A DNA stretch of 32,372 bases from a virus: positions 1 to 32,372 of the IMG/VR virus record IMGVR_UViG_3300031624_000224; one strand, written 5' to 3'. Positions 12,126 to 23,176 of the stretch are shown here, in pieces. The translations under genes were made by a program, and so were the position numbers. The first letter of the stretch is position 1, and each line of letters begins with the position of its first letter. Below the pieces are notes generated by a model. It had not been told where the DNA came from. It ran no database searches and saw only the letters and a list, made by a program, of their open reading frames with translations.

Positions 12126-15100
12126 TTAACTTTCCGTAACATTTTCGCTGCCAATCTCATGTATGAAAATCCCCGCCTTTGCGTCAATTGGCTTTGATAG
12201 TTCAACAACTCTTCTATGATGCGTAAAAAGGAGCACCTGCGTACTTGATGCCAATTCAGCAAGAACCTCCAAGCAGACGCGAGTACGGTTGTCGTCAAAG
12301 CCAATGAGAATATCGTCCACGACAAACGGCATGGGTTCCCCCTTGCTCAGATGCTGTTCAAGCGTGGCCAGGCGTAGGGCGAGGTAAAGCTGGTCTCGTG
12401 AGCCATCGCTCATGCCGTCGACAGTAACCTCTTTGTCATTGGGGCGTACACCCAGCAATATGGGATTTCCCTTGTCATCTAATTCGTCTCGGAGTCCCGC
12501 ATAGGAACCCAAGGTCAGCTTGGAGAATAATTCACCTGCTCTGGCTAGAACCGGGGCCTGGTTTGTCTTTCGGAAGTTTTCGATTCGCTGTTCGAGGATG
12601 AGTGCGGCGGCCTGCAGTCGAAGATATTGTTCGGCATTCGAAGCTATGCTGGCAAGGTGCTCCTCGGCATCTTCCGATGCATTTGCGGCCAGGGCACTGC
12701 CATCCTTCGCATTGATTTCATTTTGAAGAGTCTGTCGGTGATCTCTTAATTTGTCCCGTTCGCCATGAAGCGCCTTCAGCTCACCGGCGACCTTTTCAAG
12801 CTCACCCTCTATTGCATCCGTTTCCGATGCTTCTGACTCCTTTTCGAGTTCTTCAATGCTCAAGCCATCGCCGTTTCTATTAAGCTCTTGGTCGAGCATA
12901 TCCAGTTTTTTTTGTAGGTCCCGCTTGTTTTTCGATTTTTCACCGGCCTCTACTAGTTCCTCATCAGTTTCGACCTTGGCTTGAGTCCTCAATGCGGCCA
13001 ACTGTTCCTTGGAGTTTCGGCTCGTGATATCGGCATTCTCGATTTCCTGTTTGATTTCTTTGAGTTGCGATTCAATCTTGGTTAAGCTTGCTCGGGCTTC
13101 ACGCGCCATGTTCAGATCGCTATTCAATTGAGCGGCAATCGCCGATGCTTCTAACCCTTCTCGTTTGACCCCGATGCTGTCGGCAAACTCGAATACCTTT
13201 TCGTCGAATTTCTCTTTAACCTGATCCATCCCATAAATGCGTTTACGCAAGTCCTCTGACTTGTCGTGTTTATCAAAGAAAGACAACAGGTTATCGAAAG
13301 TCTCGGTCGCATGCTCAGGATGAACATCTTCCTTCAATCCCAAGCCCTCTATGGCCTCTATCCATTCTTGTTTCCAGCTTGAAAGATCGACGCCAACTGA
13401 CTTCAATTCATCCTTTTTTCTCTTTAGACGAATTTCGGATTCTTTGAGCAGATGTTCATTTTGGCGACGCTTTTCACGAATAGCTTCTTCTTCCTCTACT
13501 CGCTGCTCACACAACGAAATCAGGGATTCAAGGCTCATATCCTGCGTGTCTGTTGATGAGTCGAATTTTGAGATTTGACCAGATACGGTCTGCTTCAGTT
13601 GCTCGCACTCTTCGGCGAGACTTTGTTGATTTGCTGAGTAGCGTTTTGCGGTTTGGACTTTTTCGATAAGGTTCTCTACTCTGAGAAGCCACTGCTTCAT
13701 TTCCCTCGGAGTTCCAGCCTCTATCTTCAGCGGTTCCCATATAGCGGACCATCTCGCCTGGAAATCATTTTGTCTTGCCCTTATGTTCTCAAGGGCTCCC
13801 AGTAGGTCATCAATTCGCGATTGTAGAGTTTCTATCTTTGATTCTAGCTCTGCTCGCTTAACGACCTGGTCAGCTTCCATTCGGAGGCGATCAGATACGT
13901 GGTCAGCAGACTCGACTTTCTTCTCGTATGTGGATGGCAAATCGTCATCTTGAACGTATTCAGAAATCTCGTTTTCAACAACCTCGGTCTGTTCGATATA
14001 CTTGCGTTTGATCAGCTGCCAGCCGGTAGTTCTAACATCTCGCGAAGTTTCCAAGTCGGCAAGGGTCGGCACATCACTTTGAAGCAAAAGTGCCTTTAAA
14101 TCTTGTTCTGCCTGCCTTTTCTCCTCGTCAACTTCCTGCTCTTCTCGAGTCGTATCTTTGTATTCTTCTGACAGTGCTTCATTTTCTTTTTCGAACTGGT
14201 CCAACGTTTCAGATACTGGCAGAGATAGCTTCAATACGGCATCAACCGAGCCAGTGTACCTTCCCAGCCTCGCCAGTTCGTTTTGGCATGCCTCATTTTC
14301 GTCACAAGCTTGCTTCTGTGCTTCGGCTAACCGCTGCTCGACATTGCCTGCCTTTCGAGCTGCTGCAATCGAGGCCTTAAGCTCTTTCAAGTCAATGTCG
14401 GATTCCGAGCTGTTGTCTAATTCGCTTTGTAAAGATCTACGCTCGTCTTCGATATCTTTAATGGACGCTTCGGCCTGTTCCTTGTTTTGGACCAACAAGC
14501 TGTGCTTTTGGGCTAATCCCGAAATCCATTTCTTGTTATTGAGAAGCGGTCGCAAATCGTCAGCTTGATCCAAACCAACATCCGGGCGAACAGTTTTAAG
14601 TAGTGTTTCGGCTTCGTTGCGCAGCAAACGCCTTTTACCATCCTGCTGCGGACGGTCCTTGAGCGTTTTTTCGACGGCTCCAAGTTCCTTATGAAGCACC
14701 AAGATGGCTTCCTCGTTTTCAAGAAGATCGCTTCGAACGATTAATGATTCCGATTCCTCTTTTAAGCCTAGCAGCTTTGCTTCTAGTCGCTCCTTGCTTT
14801 CACTGGCAGATTGAAGATTGCTGCTGGCGGTTCTTCTCTTTTCCTCAGAATCTTCGGGCATCAGATCCACCTGACCCAGGGCTTCAATTCTCCCCAAGAC
14901 GCTCCGACGCTCAGCCAAGGCTCCCTTTACGCGGTTGACCCGCTCCAGGCGACTTTTCACCTTGCCTTTTGCTTCAATATCCTTCTCTATTTTCTCAATG
15001 GTCGCTATCGTGTCTGATAGGTCTTTTTGCAGTTTCTTCCAGTCAGAAACAGGCAAGGTCGCTTCCTTTATTCTTTTCTGAGCTTCCTTATAGATGGCGA

Positions 15101-15662
15101 TTGCCTGGTTTATGACCGACTTGGAACCACGCGATTTGAAGATCTCGTCCGCGCCGTTTTGCATCGCAGTCAGTACTTCTCGTAGATTTGCGGTCCCAAC
15201 TGCTGCACTAAAAAGAGCCTGACCAAGGTCGCCAGACTGTTCCAATAGTTCACGACCTCCCGCGATCAATCTTTCATGATCGATTCCCCAAAGCTTTGTA
15301 AATAGGTTTTCGTCAATACTCGCGGGAATAAACGGTATCAGAGAACCATCATCCATTGGATCGTTGGTACCGTACATCAGCAATGTGTCCTTGTTCCCCT
15401 TTTTTCTTGTAAATTCGAGGGTGGAGCCATCTGTAAGTCGCAACTGCCCCCCGATTCGAAGCTGCGAATGCGAATGCAGGAAACTGTCATTGGTCCTGGC
15501 GGGAATACCAAATAGCCAGGCAATAAGGGCTCGAAGCGAGGTGCTTTTGCCAGCTTCGTTGTCACCGTAGATTAGATGTAATCCCGAGTCGCCATTAGTA
15601 AGATCTAACGACTGATCTGTGAATGGGCCGTAAGCAAACAGGTCAAGACGGTCGATTCTCAT
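12126..15662 (-). CDS. SbcC/Rad50-like AAA ATPase (YhaN-like)
   Basis: 1178 aa. Walker A is YGDNEAGKST (about residues 32-41) after the typical opening FAYGPFTDQSLDL. A very long coiled coil fills the centre, rich in Glu/Lys/Leu heptads (for example EEEITT-type and RLKRKKDELKSVG stretches). The C-terminal lobe has the ABC signature MSDGSRDQLYLALRLATLE (about 1079-1097), Walker B MPFVVDDILIGFDDNR (about 1105-1120) and the His-switch LLFTHHRRVVE. No central CxxC zinc hook is obvious, as in YhaN rather than Rad50. It starts inside the stop of the upstream phosphoesterase gene, so the pair is coupled. The region is AT-richer than its neighbours and opposite in strand, suggesting later acquisition. 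Confidence 0.9.
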   Translation of the reverse strand: MRIDRLDLFAYGPFTDQSLDLTNGDSGLHLIYGDNEAGKSTSLRALIAWLFGIPARTNDSFLHSHSQLRIGGQLRLTDGSTLEFTRKKGNKDTLLMYGTNDPMDDGSLIPFIPASIDENLFTKLWGIDHERLIAGGRELLEQSGDLGQALFSAAVGTANLREVLTAMQNGADEIFKSRGSKSVINQAIAIYKEAQKRIKEATLPVSDWKKLQKDLSDTIATIEKIEKDIEAKGKVKSRLERVNRVKGALAERRSVLGRIEALGQVDLMPEDSEEKRRTASSNLQSASESKERLEAKLLGLKEESESLIVRSDLLENEEAILVLHKELGAVEKTLKDRPQQDGKRRLLRNEAETLLKTVRPDVGLDQADDLRPLLNNKKWISGLAQKHSLLVQNKEQAEASIKDIEDERRSLQSELDNSSESDIDLKELKASIAAARKAGNVEQRLAEAQKQACDENEACQNELARLGRYTGSVDAVLKLSLPVSETLDQFEKENEALSEEYKDTTREEQEVDEEKRQAEQDLKALLLQSDVPTLADLETSRDVRTTGWQLIKRKYIEQTEVVENEISEYVQDDDLPSTYEKKVESADHVSDRLRMEADQVVKRAELESKIETLQSRIDDLLGALENIRARQNDFQARWSAIWEPLKIEAGTPREMKQWLLRVENLIEKVQTAKRYSANQQSLAEECEQLKQTVSGQISKFDSSTDTQDMSLESLISLCEQRVEEEEAIREKRRQNEHLLKESEIRLKRKKDELKSVGVDLSSWKQEWIEAIEGLGLKEDVHPEHATETFDNLLSFFDKHDKSEDLRKRIYGMDQVKEKFDEKVFEFADSIGVKREGLEASAIAAQLNSDLNMAREARASLTKIESQLKEIKQEIENADITSRNSKEQLAALRTQAKVETDEELVEAGEKSKNKRDLQKKLDMLDQELNRNGDGLSIEELEKESEASETDAIEGELEKVAGELKALHGERDKLRDHRQTLQNEINAKDGSALAANASEDAEEHLASIASNAEQYLRLQAAALILEQRIENFRKTNQAPVLARAGELFSKLTLGSYAGLRDELDDKGNPILLGVRPNDKEVTVDGMSDGSRDQLYLALRLATLEQHLSKGEPMPFVVDDILIGFDDNRTRVCLEVLAELASSTQVLLFTHHRRVVELSKPIDAKAGIFIHEIGSENVTES

Positions 15663-16924
15663 TTTGCACCTCCAACCGTCAGCAACCTACCGATCAACAT
15701 GTGCTTTGCTTCTTCAACAATTCGATGGACGGTTTGCTCGTCATCCAGGTTTAAGACAGAATCATCGCCAAATGCCTCGGATGGTGCCTTTTGTCTGAGT
15801 TCCGCAATTTTGTCTTTCAGCCCGTCGATATCGTCATTGCCATTGGTGATACTCAGAATCTCCTTCAGTAATCTCCCCATGGCGTTGTCGTCAGCCAACG
15901 TGGATTCCAAATCGAGCTTGCGGGTAGTTGAATTCTCTATTCGCTCAATCCACAGGTCGTCTCCTTCGATCTCGGCACCAAGGGCTTTTATTTGCTGATC
16001 GAGCTTCTCAGGGTAGGCTGCAATTTCATCCGCTTTCTTGGTAGCCCCCTGCAACCGTATCCGCATAGCAAGAGGTCTATTTTCAGCAGACGCTTTTTCT
16101 TGCTCGATGCCTTTTCGGACACGTTCTAAAACCTCGCGCATTTCATCGACGTCGGTTATGTCGATATCGCACAGGGACCATCGCAAGACATCTAGGGATA
16201 TCCTGTCGATATCGGAAACGGCACCATCGTCAACAGAGACAAGCACACAACCCTTTGCGCCTGCTTCGCGAATATGGCGGCCCTGGATGCAACCAGGAAA
16301 GATAACATGTGGATATTCCTCGACAATTTCCTGCTTGTGTATGTGCCCCAAAGCCCAGTACTGGTATTCCTTGGAACGAAGGTCATCCAATGAGCATGGT
16401 GCATAATTGGCATGGCCTTCACGACCGTCGAGGCTTGTATGCAATAGCCCGATATTGAAAAGTCCCTTTTCAGCAGTGCAAAATCCCGCCACCAAGTTTT
16501 CATCCACATGTTGGGTTGGAAAGCTGCGCCCATGAATCGCCACACCAAGGTCATCCAATTTGACCGTTTCGACTTTCTTTGAAGAAAACATTCTCATGTT
16601 CGAGGGGCTATCCAAGGATTTTGTCATCCGATTTGCCGCATCGTGGTTTCCAGATACTGAGAATACTTGGATATCGTGCCGCCCCAACCGCCCCATCTGT
16701 TTGCTCAGAAATATGCCCGTGCTGTAGTCTTTCCAGTCGCCGTCATACAGATCACCGGCCAACAGGACAAAGGCCACTTCCTCCTCTATTGCCAGGTCAA
16801 CTAGGTTTTCAAACGCCCGTCGGCAAGCAGCCCGAATGGATTCGGCAGGAGCAGATTCGTACCGAGATAATCCGCGCAATGGACTGTCCAAATGAATATC
16901 GGCTGCGTGAATGAACTTGAACAA
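15659..16924 (-). CDS. SbcD/Mre11-like metallophosphoesterase (YhaO-like exonuclease)
   Basis: The protein opens with FKFIHAADIHLDSPLRG and has the phosphoesterase metal motifs in order: AADIHLD, LLAGDLYDGDW, VFSVSGNHDAANR, IGLLHTSLDG and YWALGHIHKQE. This is the calcineurin-like nuclease of SbcCD/YhaNO complexes. A GTG at 16930 is in frame, but the TTG at 16924 has GAGAGG five nucleotides upstream and gives the usual short N-terminus; I prefer 16924 (421 aa). It overlaps the ATPase gene by 4 nt. Together they should form an ATP-controlled nuclease acting on DNA ends or hairpins. A role in recombination, repair or defence cannot be decided from sequence. Confidence 0.9.
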   Translation of the reverse strand: MFKFIHAADIHLDSPLRGLSRYESAPAESIRAACRRAFENLVDLAIEEEVAFVLLAGDLYDGDWKDYSTGIFLSKQMGRLGRHDIQVFSVSGNHDAANRMTKSLDSPSNMRMFSSKKVETVKLDDLGVAIHGRSFPTQHVDENLVAGFCTAEKGLFNIGLLHTSLDGREGHANYAPCSLDDLRSKEYQYWALGHIHKQEIVEEYPHVIFPGCIQGRHIREAGAKGCVLVSVDDGAVSDIDRISLDVLRWSLCDIDITDVDEMREVLERVRKGIEQEKASAENRPLAMRIRLQGATKKADEIAAYPEKLDQQIKALGAEIEGDDLWIERIENSTTRKLDLESTLADDNAMGRLLKEILSITNGNDDIDGLKDKIAELRQKAPSEAFGDDSVLNLDDEQTVHRIVEEAKHMLIGRLLTVGGAK

Positions 16925-16973
16925 AAGCACCTCTCATTTCAGAAGGATGCTAACATTGTTTATGTACTTTCTT

Positions 16974-19725: not shown

Positions 19726-19953
19726 TTAGTGACATCCCTGAGTACTTGTGCATTCGCACTGGTTCCCAGCGCGTCTCAGAGCTTTGTCTTTTGTTGCCTG
19801 GTCAAATACAGGAGGTGTCTTGCCTGGTGTTCCGTAAGTTGATGTTCTCGCATGGCACGTTTGGCAAAGCACGATAGCGTTGCCAAGATCGTTGCCACCA
19901 TCCCGCCGTTTGTGATGAACTTCCAAGCTTCTGGTTCTTGTGCATCTTGCCAT
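19726..19953 (-). CDS. Small HNH protein (75 aa)
   Basis: ATG at 19953 follows AAAGGAGACTCTTCA, a very good ribosome binding site. The HNH core reads SLEVHHKRRDGGNDLGNAIV and then LCQTCHAR, giving the His-His, Asn and Cys-His residues of the fold. The C-terminus adds AGNQCECTSTQGCH with further Cys/His. The length is short but has the look of a complete mini-HNH protein; alternatively it is cut at its C-terminus by the rearrangement just downstream. It is the last gene of the restriction-modification operon, 28 nt after the GIY-YIG-like gene. A DNA-nicking or repair role alongside the methyltransferase is inference. Confidence 0.7.
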   Translation of the reverse strand: MARCTRTRSLEVHHKRRDGGNDLGNAIVLCQTCHARTSTYGTPGKTPPVFDQATKDKALRRAGNQCECTSTQGCH

Positions 19954-19981
19954 TGAAGAGTCTCCTTTCTTTGAAGTGTTC

Positions 19982-20332
19982 TTACCAAGGAAGATTAACT
20001 GACATCGGGCGGCGTTGTGGAAAGCGGTCGCCTACAAGCGGCTGCAACTGCTGGGCAAGAAATGCCTCCACGCCATCCCTTTCGCTATCCACCACCGACG
20101 CCCATGTAACAAATATATCCAAATGGGCATACCTCTGAATATTGGGATCGTTTCGGTGAGATTGAAGCCTATCGCGGATATTTCCTTGGCCAATGCGAAC
20201 TACCGCAGGATTCTGGCCGCCATACCAAATAACATAGACCCCTTCCATCCCATCGAAATGACTATGAGACAAATCGACATCATTCAGACTGCACCAAACA
20301 TCCCCCTGGCACTTGTTCCACGTCAACGTCAT
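19982..20332 (-). CDS. GIY-YIG-like protein (116 aa)
   Basis: ATG 20332 has GAGAGGGACAGAC upstream. The core GMEGVYVIWYGGQNPAVVRI followed by GQGNIRDRLQSHRND resembles the GIY-YIG nuclease fold: a GVY/YVI strand pair, then a Gly and a catalytic-type Arg in a helix. The rest (LDIFVTWASVVDSERDGVEAF; MSVNLPW) is less typical. At 116 aa it is smaller than GIY-YIG restriction enzymes such as Eco29kI. It lies 33 nt after the methyltransferase gene and before the HNH gene on the same strand, so it is probably an accessory nuclease of the same system. Loss of activity cannot be excluded. Confidence 0.65.
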   Translation of the reverse strand: MTLTWNKCQGDVWCSLNDVDLSHSHFDGMEGVYVIWYGGQNPAVVRIGQGNIRDRLQSHRNDPNIQRYAHLDIFVTWASVVDSERDGVEAFLAQQLQPLVGDRFPQRRPMSVNLPW

Positions 20333-20365
20333 GTCTGTCCCTCTCTTGGAAATCGCACTCTAGGA

Positions 20366-21394
20366 TCAGAAGAATGCAGTTTGACCTCCGCGTTCTTTTT
20401 CTCCCTTTTCAGTCTTTTTGAGGTCCAACGTATACTCGAAATCTTGAAGCAGATAATCGGCGTGGCTATCTCTGAGCATGTCAAGTATCTTGCTAATTAG
20501 CCCCAACTCTTGGCCTTCAAGAAAGCGGAACACCGAAGAGGCAATGTATTCCTGATTTAATTCGAACGAGAGCCAATTTCGATCAAGTATTTCCGCGGCA
20601 AATCCAGTAGTGTTTGAGCCAGCAAATATATCTAAGACAGTGTCCCCTTTTGCGGTCAACATCTTTATGAAGAACGTTGGAAGTTCCAGTGGAAAACGGG
20701 CGGGATGGCGCTCAACCCCAAATTCTTTACACATTCGAAGATATCCTGAATTACTCTCTGTGTTTGGGATAGACAACAGATTTGAGGGAATAGCACCGCC
20801 GTTATCCCTCGCAAAACCTGAACTAATATCATGTCCTGACGGACGTTTCTTTGGCTTATAAAAACTCTCCGGATCTTCAATCAGCTTCTTCATTCTCTCA
20901 GAATACGGTGCTAATACATTCCTAACATCAGCTTTGGGGAAATCTGACTTACTGAACCACCACACTGTATTAACTGAGTCTTTGGCTCTCATTTTTCGTT
21001 TATTAACCCATTCAATAGGAGATGGCAACTTAGACGGATTGAACCAATAAAAGTCTTCGGCAAGTCGAAATCCTATGTCATCACAGAAAGTCAACAATAC
21101 CCGAAAATTATACAATGAACGCGACGGGATGCCCGACCGGTATGCTCCTCCTAAATCAAGAACGAAGCTCCCCGTGTCCTTTAGGATTCTGAAAACTTCA
21201 ACACCAAAAGGTTTTATCCAGGCAACGTATTCGGATTCTTCAACATTGCCATAGGTCTTCTGCCGACGCAAGGCGAATGGTGGTGAGGTCATTACAAGAT
21301 CAATACTGCTATCCGGTAACTCTGCCAGCAGTTCTAGAGAATCTCCGACATAAGCTTGACCTCTTGTGGTTCGATAAAGGGGTTTACTTATCAT
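20366..21394 (-). CDS. DNA methyltransferase, PvuII-type (probable N4-cytosine, beta class)
   Basis: 342 aa from ATG 21394, three nucleotides beyond the upstream stop. Catalytic motif IV is TSPPF (36-40) in MTSPPFALRRQKTYGN, very like M.PvuII-type enzymes. The AdoMet motif I (LDIFAGSNTTGFAAE, about 253-267) comes after it, so the order is that of the beta class. Intervening VLDLGGAYRSGIPSRSLYN and DFYWFNPSKLPSPIEWV are also characteristic of this group. The SPP core suggests N4-methylcytosine; adenine methylation is less likely. The target-recognition region lies between the motifs and its specificity cannot be read off. The preceding gene is the expected restriction partner. Confidence 0.92.
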   Translation of the reverse strand: MISKPLYRTTRGQAYVGDSLELLAELPDSSIDLVMTSPPFALRRQKTYGNVEESEYVAWIKPFGVEVFRILKDTGSFVLDLGGAYRSGIPSRSLYNFRVLLTFCDDIGFRLAEDFYWFNPSKLPSPIEWVNKRKMRAKDSVNTVWWFSKSDFPKADVRNVLAPYSERMKKLIEDPESFYKPKKRPSGHDISSGFARDNGGAIPSNLLSIPNTESNSGYLRMCKEFGVERHPARFPLELPTFFIKMLTAKGDTVLDIFAGSNTTGFAAEILDRNWLSFELNQEYIASSVFRFLEGQELGLISKILDMLRDSHADYLLQDFEYTLDLKKTEKGEKERGGQTAFF

Positions 21395-21396
21395 GG

Positions 21397-22872
21397 CTAA
21401 TATTCCTCCAGACCATGGACCCAACTTGCCACAATCTGCCACAGCACGCTGGCGGCGAAGTAGACTTCTGGATCAGCTTTGCATATCCCTTCAACGTCAG
21501 CTTGGACGAAATTATCTTTTCCATAACCTACGATGTAGCTTACCCACCTGCGAAGGTTTTGATCGTCTCCCATAATTAGATCAGACGGGTTGAATTTCCC
21601 GGTTCTTGCAAGAGCCCAGGATATGCCGTCACGTTTGCTTGGCTCACTATTCTTCAGTAAATCCACCAAATGGTGTATCTGTGGCTCGGCAATACGGAGA
21701 AGCGCTCGCGCAGCCTCAACTTTGATTTCCAATGCGCTTAGATTGAATGTATCAACGAGCGCCGTTGCAGACAAGGCAGAGGCAAACTGTCCTAACGTCC
21801 AAGCTGCACCAGCACGAAGTTCCTCGTCACGGTTATTGTCTTTCAGCACTTCAATTAATAACCCCTCACTTCGTACTCCAGGAATCTCGGACACAACGAT
21901 GATTGTCTCGAGTTGAGTTTCGAGTGGAACGGCCATAACTGGGCTACGGAGTTTATTCTCCATGAACTTCCAGCCGTTAGGATCGTTGTGCGCGGCAAGG
22001 GCAGCCGCAGCCTCAAGCTGAACATAAATATCTTCATCGGGATCGGTCATTCTGGATGCGAGGTCATTCTTGGCAGCCTTGTAACCCCTATATCTAAGCG
22101 CCTTTGCAGCGGCATATCTTTCACTCAAATTGACACTTGCGAGCTTTTCTATGAAATAGGCTTCACCGACCGACGCAGGACAATCTAAAGCCGTAGTGAC
22201 CGGGACTACCGCCGCCACTATCTGATTAGCCGCAACGGTTTCCCCTGTTTTGACTTGTGGCAGTAAGGTTATCGTGCCCTTCCTCCTGATCAACTGGACT
22301 GTTTGCTTTCGTCCTGCTGGAATTGGAGTAAGGCTGAGCCTGCGGGGCTCCACTGCAGAGACAACGGATTGCTGGTTAGATGCAGCGCATGTCCACATCA
22401 CCCTTATTTCGGAGCCTTCCTCCACGCCTTTTGGCTTGGTAATCGAGACCTGTCCATTAGCGAATGCCTGCCGCATATCCCTAACATTGACGAAATGAAC
22501 TGGTGAAATCTGTTTGAGTTCTATCGGGGAATCATCGCTCGGTTCGAAAACAACGATTGCAACAAGATCATCGTCGCGCATGCCCGCGTCCCATGCCCGC
22601 CTTGGGTCATTTAGGGAGTGGGACATTGATATCTCAAGCTTGGTCTTCCCGCGAGATTCGAAACGTATGCCCGTGTTCAAGCACAGAATGTCGGGAACTC
22701 GCACCCTCTTGATTTTGATTTTTTTCCAAATCTTAAACCCGGTTGAACCGCGCTCTAGCTCTATTGGGTTGAACCCCATCTCTTTTAGTCGAGCAATTGT
22801 CGTATTTGTCCCTGATGCTCCAACGGCGAGTTTTCTCAGAAAACTGTCGTCGCTCTTGAAACTATAAGCCAT
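21397..22872 (-). CDS. Candidate restriction endonuclease with C-terminal HEAT-like repeats (491 aa)
   Basis: Residues about 50-85 contain KRVRVPDILCLNTGIRFE followed by SRGKTKLEISMSHS. This has the layout of a PD-(D/E)XK-type site (Pro60-Asp61 ... Glu72 ... Arg74/Lys76), though the final Lys is shifted or replaced, so activity is uncertain. A middle strand-rich part (about 140-225) follows. From about 235 to the end, repeated helical pairs resemble HEAT/Armadillo repeats (SERYAAAKALRYRGYKAAKN; YVQLEAAAALAAH; ELRAGAAWTLGQFASAL; IKVEAARALLRIAEPQ). It starts inside the HTH gene and ends two nucleotides before the methyltransferase. Position makes it the restriction component; the architecture is unusual. 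The alternative is a non-catalytic modifier or DNA-clamp protein. Confidence 0.7.
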   Translation of the reverse strand: MAYSFKSDDSFLRKLAVGASGTNTTIARLKEMGFNPIELERGSTGFKIWKKIKIKRVRVPDILCLNTGIRFESRGKTKLEISMSHSLNDPRRAWDAGMRDDDLVAIVVFEPSDDSPIELKQISPVHFVNVRDMRQAFANGQVSITKPKGVEEGSEIRVMWTCAASNQQSVVSAVEPRRLSLTPIPAGRKQTVQLIRRKGTITLLPQVKTGETVAANQIVAAVVPVTTALDCPASVGEAYFIEKLASVNLSERYAAAKALRYRGYKAAKNDLASRMTDPDEDIYVQLEAAAALAAHNDPNGWKFMENKLRSPVMAVPLETQLETIIVVSEIPGVRSEGLLIEVLKDNNRDEELRAGAAWTLGQFASALSATALVDTFNLSALEIKVEAARALLRIAEPQIHHLVDLLKNSEPSKRDGISWALARTGKFNPSDLIMGDDQNLRRWVSYIVGYGKDNFVQADVEGICKADPEVYFAASVLWQIVASWVHGLEEY

Positions 22873-23068
22873 TGGGTCGGCCCCTCATTTGTTGTGACTC
22901 TTTCATCGTGCCTGATTTCACCCACCTGTCCAGTTCTTCTGCATCAAACCGCCAGACCCGGCCCATTCGATGGGCGGGCAGGTCACCTTCACGAGCAAGA
23001 CGATAGATCGTGGACTTGCCGATTTTCAAGTGCTTCGCTGCTTCTTCCAGAGTCAACCAGGTAGTCAT
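22862..23068 (-). CDS. Excisionase/MerR-type HTH DNA-binding protein (68 aa)
   Basis: Reads MTTWLTLEEAAKHLKIGKST, then IYRLAREGDLPAHRMGRVWRF, the canonical small winged HTH of the helix_turn_helix_17 (excisionase-like) type. ATG 23068 is preferred, as TGGAGACGG lies upstream and the family starts this way; ATG 23101 is in frame but would fall at the transcript start. It overlaps the HEAT-repeat gene by 11 nt and is first in the leftward operon. By position it could be the controller of the restriction-modification genes, analogous in role but not in family to C proteins. An excisionase role for one of the recombinases is the alternative. Confidence 0.8.
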   Translation of the reverse strand: MTTWLTLEEAAKHLKIGKSTIYRLAREGDLPAHRMGRVWRFDAEELDRWVKSGTMKESQQMRGRPNGL

Positions 23069-23106
23069 GAAATCGCCGTCTCCATCTCCACTCGTGGTCA
23101 CTAAAT

Positions 23107-23134
23107 ATCATATAATAACATTTCTGAGCACCAA
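23107..23134 (-). promoter_or_regulatory. Probable promoter of the restriction-modification operon
   Basis: On the minus strand TTGGTG (23129-23134) and TATGAT (23107-23112) are spaced by 16 nt. Transcription would begin near 23100, consistent with translation of the HTH gene from 23068. The surrounding AT-rich tract is the only such stretch in this divergent gap. Confidence 0.55.
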
Positions 23135-23176
23135 AGGCAACACATTTTCCGTTCGCCGTCAGAATGTGTTTCCGGT

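Follow-up and report, generated by a model that had tools for sequence, protein, structure and literature searches.

A HEAT-repeat protein paired with an M.PvuII-like methyltransferase forms a candidate two-gene restriction-modification module with CAGCTG as its predicted target

The closest described relative of the locus analysed here is the PvuII restriction-modification system of plasmid pPvu1, a mobile module that also occurs on prophages (L002 and L003), and in which the methylase gene M is arranged divergently from the C and R genes. A second relevant arrangement is found on a Thiothrix plasmid (L010, 755-2672), where a PvuII-like methylase is accompanied by an HNH endonuclease; this locus likewise shows a swap of the partner nuclease, although its partner is of the HNH type, its methylase is more distant and no HEAT protein is present. 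The open-access literature searched gave no account of a PvuII-type restriction enzyme with HEAT repeats, and some proteins of the family described below may be listed in REBASE by proximity.

The window is the whole stretch of 32,372 nucleotides of the IMG/VR virus record IMGVR_UViG_3300031624_000224; among its products are recombinases of the serine and tyrosine types, nucleases of the ERCC4 and PD-(D/E)XK types, RecD2, a primase and a terminase. Five genes, all on the minus strand, occupy the interval that separates the RecD2 gene from the primase gene: a 68-aa (from ATG) HTH_17/excisionase-type protein (22862..23068), a 491-aa HEAT protein proposed to be a restriction endonuclease (21397..22872), a 342-aa PvuII-type N4-cytosine methyltransferase with the predicted target CAGCTG (20366..21394), a 116-aa ORF (19982..20332) and a 75-aa HNH protein (19726..19953). 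The original prediction, which regarded them as one restriction-modification operon, gave these leftward ORFs and their spacing exactly: the HTH and HEAT genes overlap by 11 nt, the HEAT and methylase genes are separated by 2 nt, the methylase gene and the 116-aa ORF by 33 nt, and the 116-aa ORF and the HNH gene by 28 nt. It had also placed the whole set under one promoter. A plausible sigma-70-like match on the minus strand (TTGCCT-17-TATTAT, 23112..23140) is indeed present, but three such matches occur in this region against 4.0 expected in shuffled sequence, a frequency not above chance. Elsewhere in the window (12126-16930), a two-gene operon encodes a 1178-aa AAA_27 (YhaN/SbcC-like) ATPase, which weakly matches LmuB of Lamassu, and a 423-aa calcineurin-like phosphoesterase (SbcD/YhaO-like); its GC content is about 46-50%, compared with 53-62% for most of the window, and it is possibly a second cargo island.

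The methylase, correctly named as a PvuII-type beta-class enzyme from the start, matches the N6_N4_Mtase profile (2e-40) and the structure 1boo (E 3.5e-132), and is 64.4% identical to M.PvuII of pPvu1. Its SPPF and FAGSNTTG motifs are intact and stand in the beta-class order, and its central region is strongly conserved. Judged by sequence, it is a true orthologue of M.PvuII, and specificity for CAGCTG is therefore expected. The companions of the methylase are different. R.PvuII was not detected in the window, in the loci encoding HEAT homologues or in 24 genomes carrying them, and C.PvuII was not detected in the window or in these loci, whereas both were found in the control prophages L002 and L003, on either side of the methylase gene. 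The place of the nuclease is occupied by the 491-aa HEAT protein, which is unrelated to R.PvuII and shows no direct similarity to it, and the genes are arranged in tandem with a gap of 1-2 nt rather than divergently. By its methylase and its presumed action, the HEAT-methylase pair (HEAT-M) belongs to the PvuII kind of restriction-modification; it is not a PvuII system, since R.PvuII and C.PvuII were looked for and are absent. In the methylase tree, the HEAT-linked methylases lie apart from the R.PvuII-linked ones, with a deep order that is uncertain owing to long branches.

Homologues of the HEAT protein, 29-82% identical to that of the window, were found widely. A genome scan revealed 33 loci, mostly at 67-82% identity, in records whose titles name Nitrospinae, Armatimonadetes, Pseudomonadota, Chlorobi, Planctomycetota, Actinomycetota, Desulfobacterota, Cyanobacteria, Verrucomicrobia, Aminicenantes and others; these records are mostly MAGs, and single phylum placements may be wrong. 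Cultured carriers are Chlorobaculum thiosulfatiphilum DSM 249, Tepidicella baoligensis B18-50 and Thermosulfurimonas dismutans S95. No relatives of the HEAT protein emerged from searches of phage, plasmid and IMG/VR sequences, so that outside the window all members of the family in this analysis come from genomes. An M.PvuII-like gene directly follows the HEAT gene in all 31 genome-scan loci that extend far enough, usually with 1-2 nt between it and the stop codon of the HEAT gene, and the same order is seen in four further intact loci (two at 40-42% identity, and two at 29-30% from the Aminicenantes/Acidobacteriota group). Altogether, all 35 intact loci that could be read, from about a dozen phyla, have the HEAT gene directly upstream of a PvuII-type methylase gene. 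In several genomes the neighbours of the pair are TIR, Thoeris ThsB, PDC-M50, PIN/FitA, ParE, PemK or addiction-module genes, the kind of setting that a mobile defence cassette would be expected to have. Degraded copies were also observed in a Chlorobiaceae genome with an intact pair: a second HEAT-methylase pair, reduced to a remnant (L077, 4259-4781), lies at a distance of about 26 kb from the intact one, and a further methylase fragment flanks the intact pair (L033, 15217-15894).

The other three genes do not share this distribution. When the co-occurrence of the five genes was counted, the proposed linkage held for the HEAT and methylase genes, and failed for the HTH, 116-aa and HNH genes, none of which has a homologue in the 33 HEAT-M loci; in an all-against-all comparison of neighbours, no other gene recurs beyond five loci. 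The HEAT and methylase genes thus form a two-gene unit, and the remaining three are its local neighbours. The first of these is of the excisionase type, as had been proposed (HTH_17/excisionase profile, 6e-18). It was also proposed to be the controller of the system, which its absence from the HEAT-M loci speaks against, and it is a local regulator at most. It scores mad1 of the MADS defence system at 62 bits, below the NCBI cut-off of 80, and no other mad protein is encoded by the five genes, so the operon does not belong to MADS. The HNH assignment of the 75-aa protein stands (PF01844, E 1.8e-4, 22.1 bits against a cut-off of 21.4). That of the 116-aa ORF to GIY-YIG lacks profile support: its motif is readable by eye only and its second tyrosine is replaced by arginine (VRIG), no match was found in Pfam, NCBIfam, PADLOC, PHROGs or PDB, and its relatives elsewhere are weak, the nearest lacking the catalytic arginine of GIY-YIG. 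Few relatives of the 116-aa and HNH proteins were retrieved by searching, and none adjoins a HEAT-M pair; those of the HNH protein are from another phage and a proteobacterial genome, both without the pair. The tight same-strand spacing, with its 11-nt overlap, and the resemblance of the HTH protein to mad1 would favour a single system in which all five products work together, the HTH protein as controller, the HEAT protein as nuclease alongside the methylase, and the GIY-YIG and HNH proteins as accessory nucleases. Such a system is highly improbable and not a conserved entity, because the three extra genes are absent from the 33 loci and the HNH and 116-aa proteins both have relatives in places where the pair is lacking.

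The two genes of the pair are both under purifying selection (dN/dS about 0.09 for each) and have evolved together, the HEAT and methylase distances being correlated with r = 0.93, or 0.82 without two distant members. Their decay is asymmetric. At nine loci the HEAT gene carries stops, frameshifts or large deletions next to an intact methylase gene, and the reverse was seen at one locus; two of the nine lesions are deletions of about 230-265 codons, which are not sequencing errors, and the excess over a length-based expectation is marginal (one-sided binomial, about 0.04). That the HEAT gene is lost while the methylase stays is how a restriction gene would be expected to behave, and it offers supporting evidence for the first gene as the restriction enzyme. 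At another locus (L072, 3326-7510) the module appears to have been interrupted: the HEAT gene is frameshifted, and what is left of the methylase is a C-terminal part some 2 kb downstream.

The HEAT-like repeats noticed in the 491-aa protein were borne out by a HEAT_2 profile match (6.5e-12), and a full-length model was confident (pLDDT 86, pTM 0.82), with an alpha/beta domain at residues 1-147, a beta domain at 148-230 and HEAT repeats at 235-488. The N-terminal domain contains the VPDILC...RFESRGKTKLEI stretch (residues 59-81), and among its residues E38, E40, G42, KxKRxRxPD61, C64, E72xR74xK76, SHS84-86, R92xW94xxG97 and D102 are kept across homologues of 29-82% identity, PD61, E72xR74xK76 and SHS84-86 being invariant. 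The predicted alpha-beta core, with PD and then an invariant glutamate 11 residues later in the next strand, weakly resembles the PD-(D/E)XK superfamily. The motif reads E-x-R-x-K where ExK is usual, and the domain also differs from that superfamily in that a beta domain and HEAT repeats are fused to it. As for the PD-(D/E)XK (alpha-beta-beta-beta-alpha-beta) fold expected in this region, residues 1-147 have no sequence match to any nuclease family, and the putative catalytic domain has none in Pfam, NCBIfam, PADLOC or PDB, but a weak fold resemblance was found, with E values below significance. A search of the Hjc family for profile comparison yielded no loci that could be used. Top PDB matches were mostly PD-(D/E)XK proteins (Hjc, I-Ssp6803I, EcoRV and MutH; best E 0.3), and a viral library gave resolvase, YqaJ and VRR-NUC proteins (best E 0.06, none individually significant); in full-length searches HEAT/ARM proteins swamped the matches. 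The N-terminus is likely to be a divergent PD-(D/E)XK nuclease domain. At residues 64-67 (of A5) the distant members have CxxC and the window clade CxxT, perhaps reflecting a lost metal site. The middle beta domain (window 22183-22430) gave weak profile matches in phylum searches (E 3e-4 to 9e-4); the one inspected (L052) proved to be RNA polymerase beta, and these matches were treated as fold-level noise.

If the HEAT protein is a restriction enzyme, the genomes of its carriers might be expected to bear a trace of it, as genome-wide avoidance of a site is the usual signature of cleavage at that site. Expected palindrome counts were obtained with a maximal-order Markov model, and 20-kb samples were taken from related non-carriers, as controls, and from carrier DNA far from the locus. 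None of the other six-base palindromes, 63 in all, is as under-represented as CAGCTG in the 453 kb of carrier loci, where CAGCTG was observed 22 times and expected 108 times. Its observed/expected ratio is 0.04 in carriers and 0.58 in non-carriers among Chlorobiaceae (p = 3e-11), 0.00 and 0.48 among Desulfobacterota (p = 2e-4), and 0.40 and 0.72 among betaproteobacteria (p = 2e-4); for the three groups pooled it is 0.22 in carriers against 0.65 in non-carrier kin (p = 4e-14; genome-level Mann-Whitney p = 8e-6), where the carriers are phylogenetically non-independent and some of those from Chlorobiaceae are near-identical. Non-carriers also avoid CAGCTG, mildly. Compared with non-carriers, CAGCTG is the most depleted of 60 palindromes in carriers; CTCGAG and GAGCTC come next, with ratios of 0.57 and 0.62. 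A distant carrier (G001), which was not pooled with the others for want of a matched control group, shows no avoidance (6 sites seen, 4.8 expected), and the CAGCTG count of the window, 5 against an expectation of 9.2, is uninformative. The simplest reading is that carriers undergo active cleavage at CAGCTG, and, with R.PvuII missing, the only candidate for the enzyme that cuts it is the HEAT protein. Many carriers are MAGs, and some may have another CAGCTG cutter unrelated to R.PvuII.

This carrier-specific loss of CAGCTG, which indicates cleavage pressure, also bears on two explanations without cutting by the HEAT protein at this site. The HEAT protein might be a non-nuclease partner of the methylase, acting in its specificity, recruitment or regulation, with the pair serving in epigenetics or anti-restriction. 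In favour of this, HEAT repeats often act as scaffolds, the protein has no significant nuclease match, and phage methylases are often anti-restriction. Given the loss of CAGCTG, the ability of M.PvuII to act alone and the preferential decay of the HEAT gene, this explanation is unlikely. Alternatively, the protein might be an abortive-infection or DNA-sensing effector that reads CAGCTG methylation as a self signal and does not cut at CAGCTG itself, which would suit its repeats and extra domains, making it three times the size of R.PvuII, and the TIR/Thoeris neighbours at some loci. It is very unlikely in view of the genome-wide avoidance, and profile searches found no second effector domain in the protein.

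The proposal that the HEAT protein is the restriction enzyme of the PvuII-type methylase is thus very probably right, given the constant linkage, the missing R.PvuII, the avoidance of CAGCTG, the preferential loss of the HEAT gene and the suggested PD-(D/E)XK fold. We assign a probability of roughly 0.8 to the reading of HEAT-M as a Type II restriction-modification module of two genes that moves laterally and in which the HEAT protein replaces R.PvuII as the presumed cutter. In such a module, the methylase would modify CAGCTG at N4 of the inner cytosine, and the HEAT protein encoded upstream would cut unmethylated CAGCTG. The N-terminal domain of about 147 aa would be catalytic, with D61 and E72 as putative active-site residues and R74/K76 at the position of the usual lysine, while the middle beta domain might join the C-terminal HEAT solenoid in gripping DNA or mediating assembly, one of which is probably the role of the repeats. 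In the window the module would be cargo of a (pro)phage-like genome, with the RecD2 gene on one side and the primase gene on the other. A bolder and more doubtful possibility is that the HEAT proteins, with ExRxK as their active site, are restriction endonucleases of a new class, which depend on a DNA-wrapping HEAT solenoid to recognise and cleave CAGCTG and are interchangeable with R.PvuII as partners of the same methylase.

As a candidate family of restriction enzymes, the HEAT proteins are widespread and have a proposed catalytic domain new to the profile and structure collections searched; they would also bring HEAT repeats into this group of enzymes. The predicted target, CAGCTG, comes from both the orthologous methylase and the site avoidance of carriers, and can be tested at once. 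The pair would also be a clear natural case of a methylase that keeps its specificity while its nuclease partner is swapped for an unrelated one.
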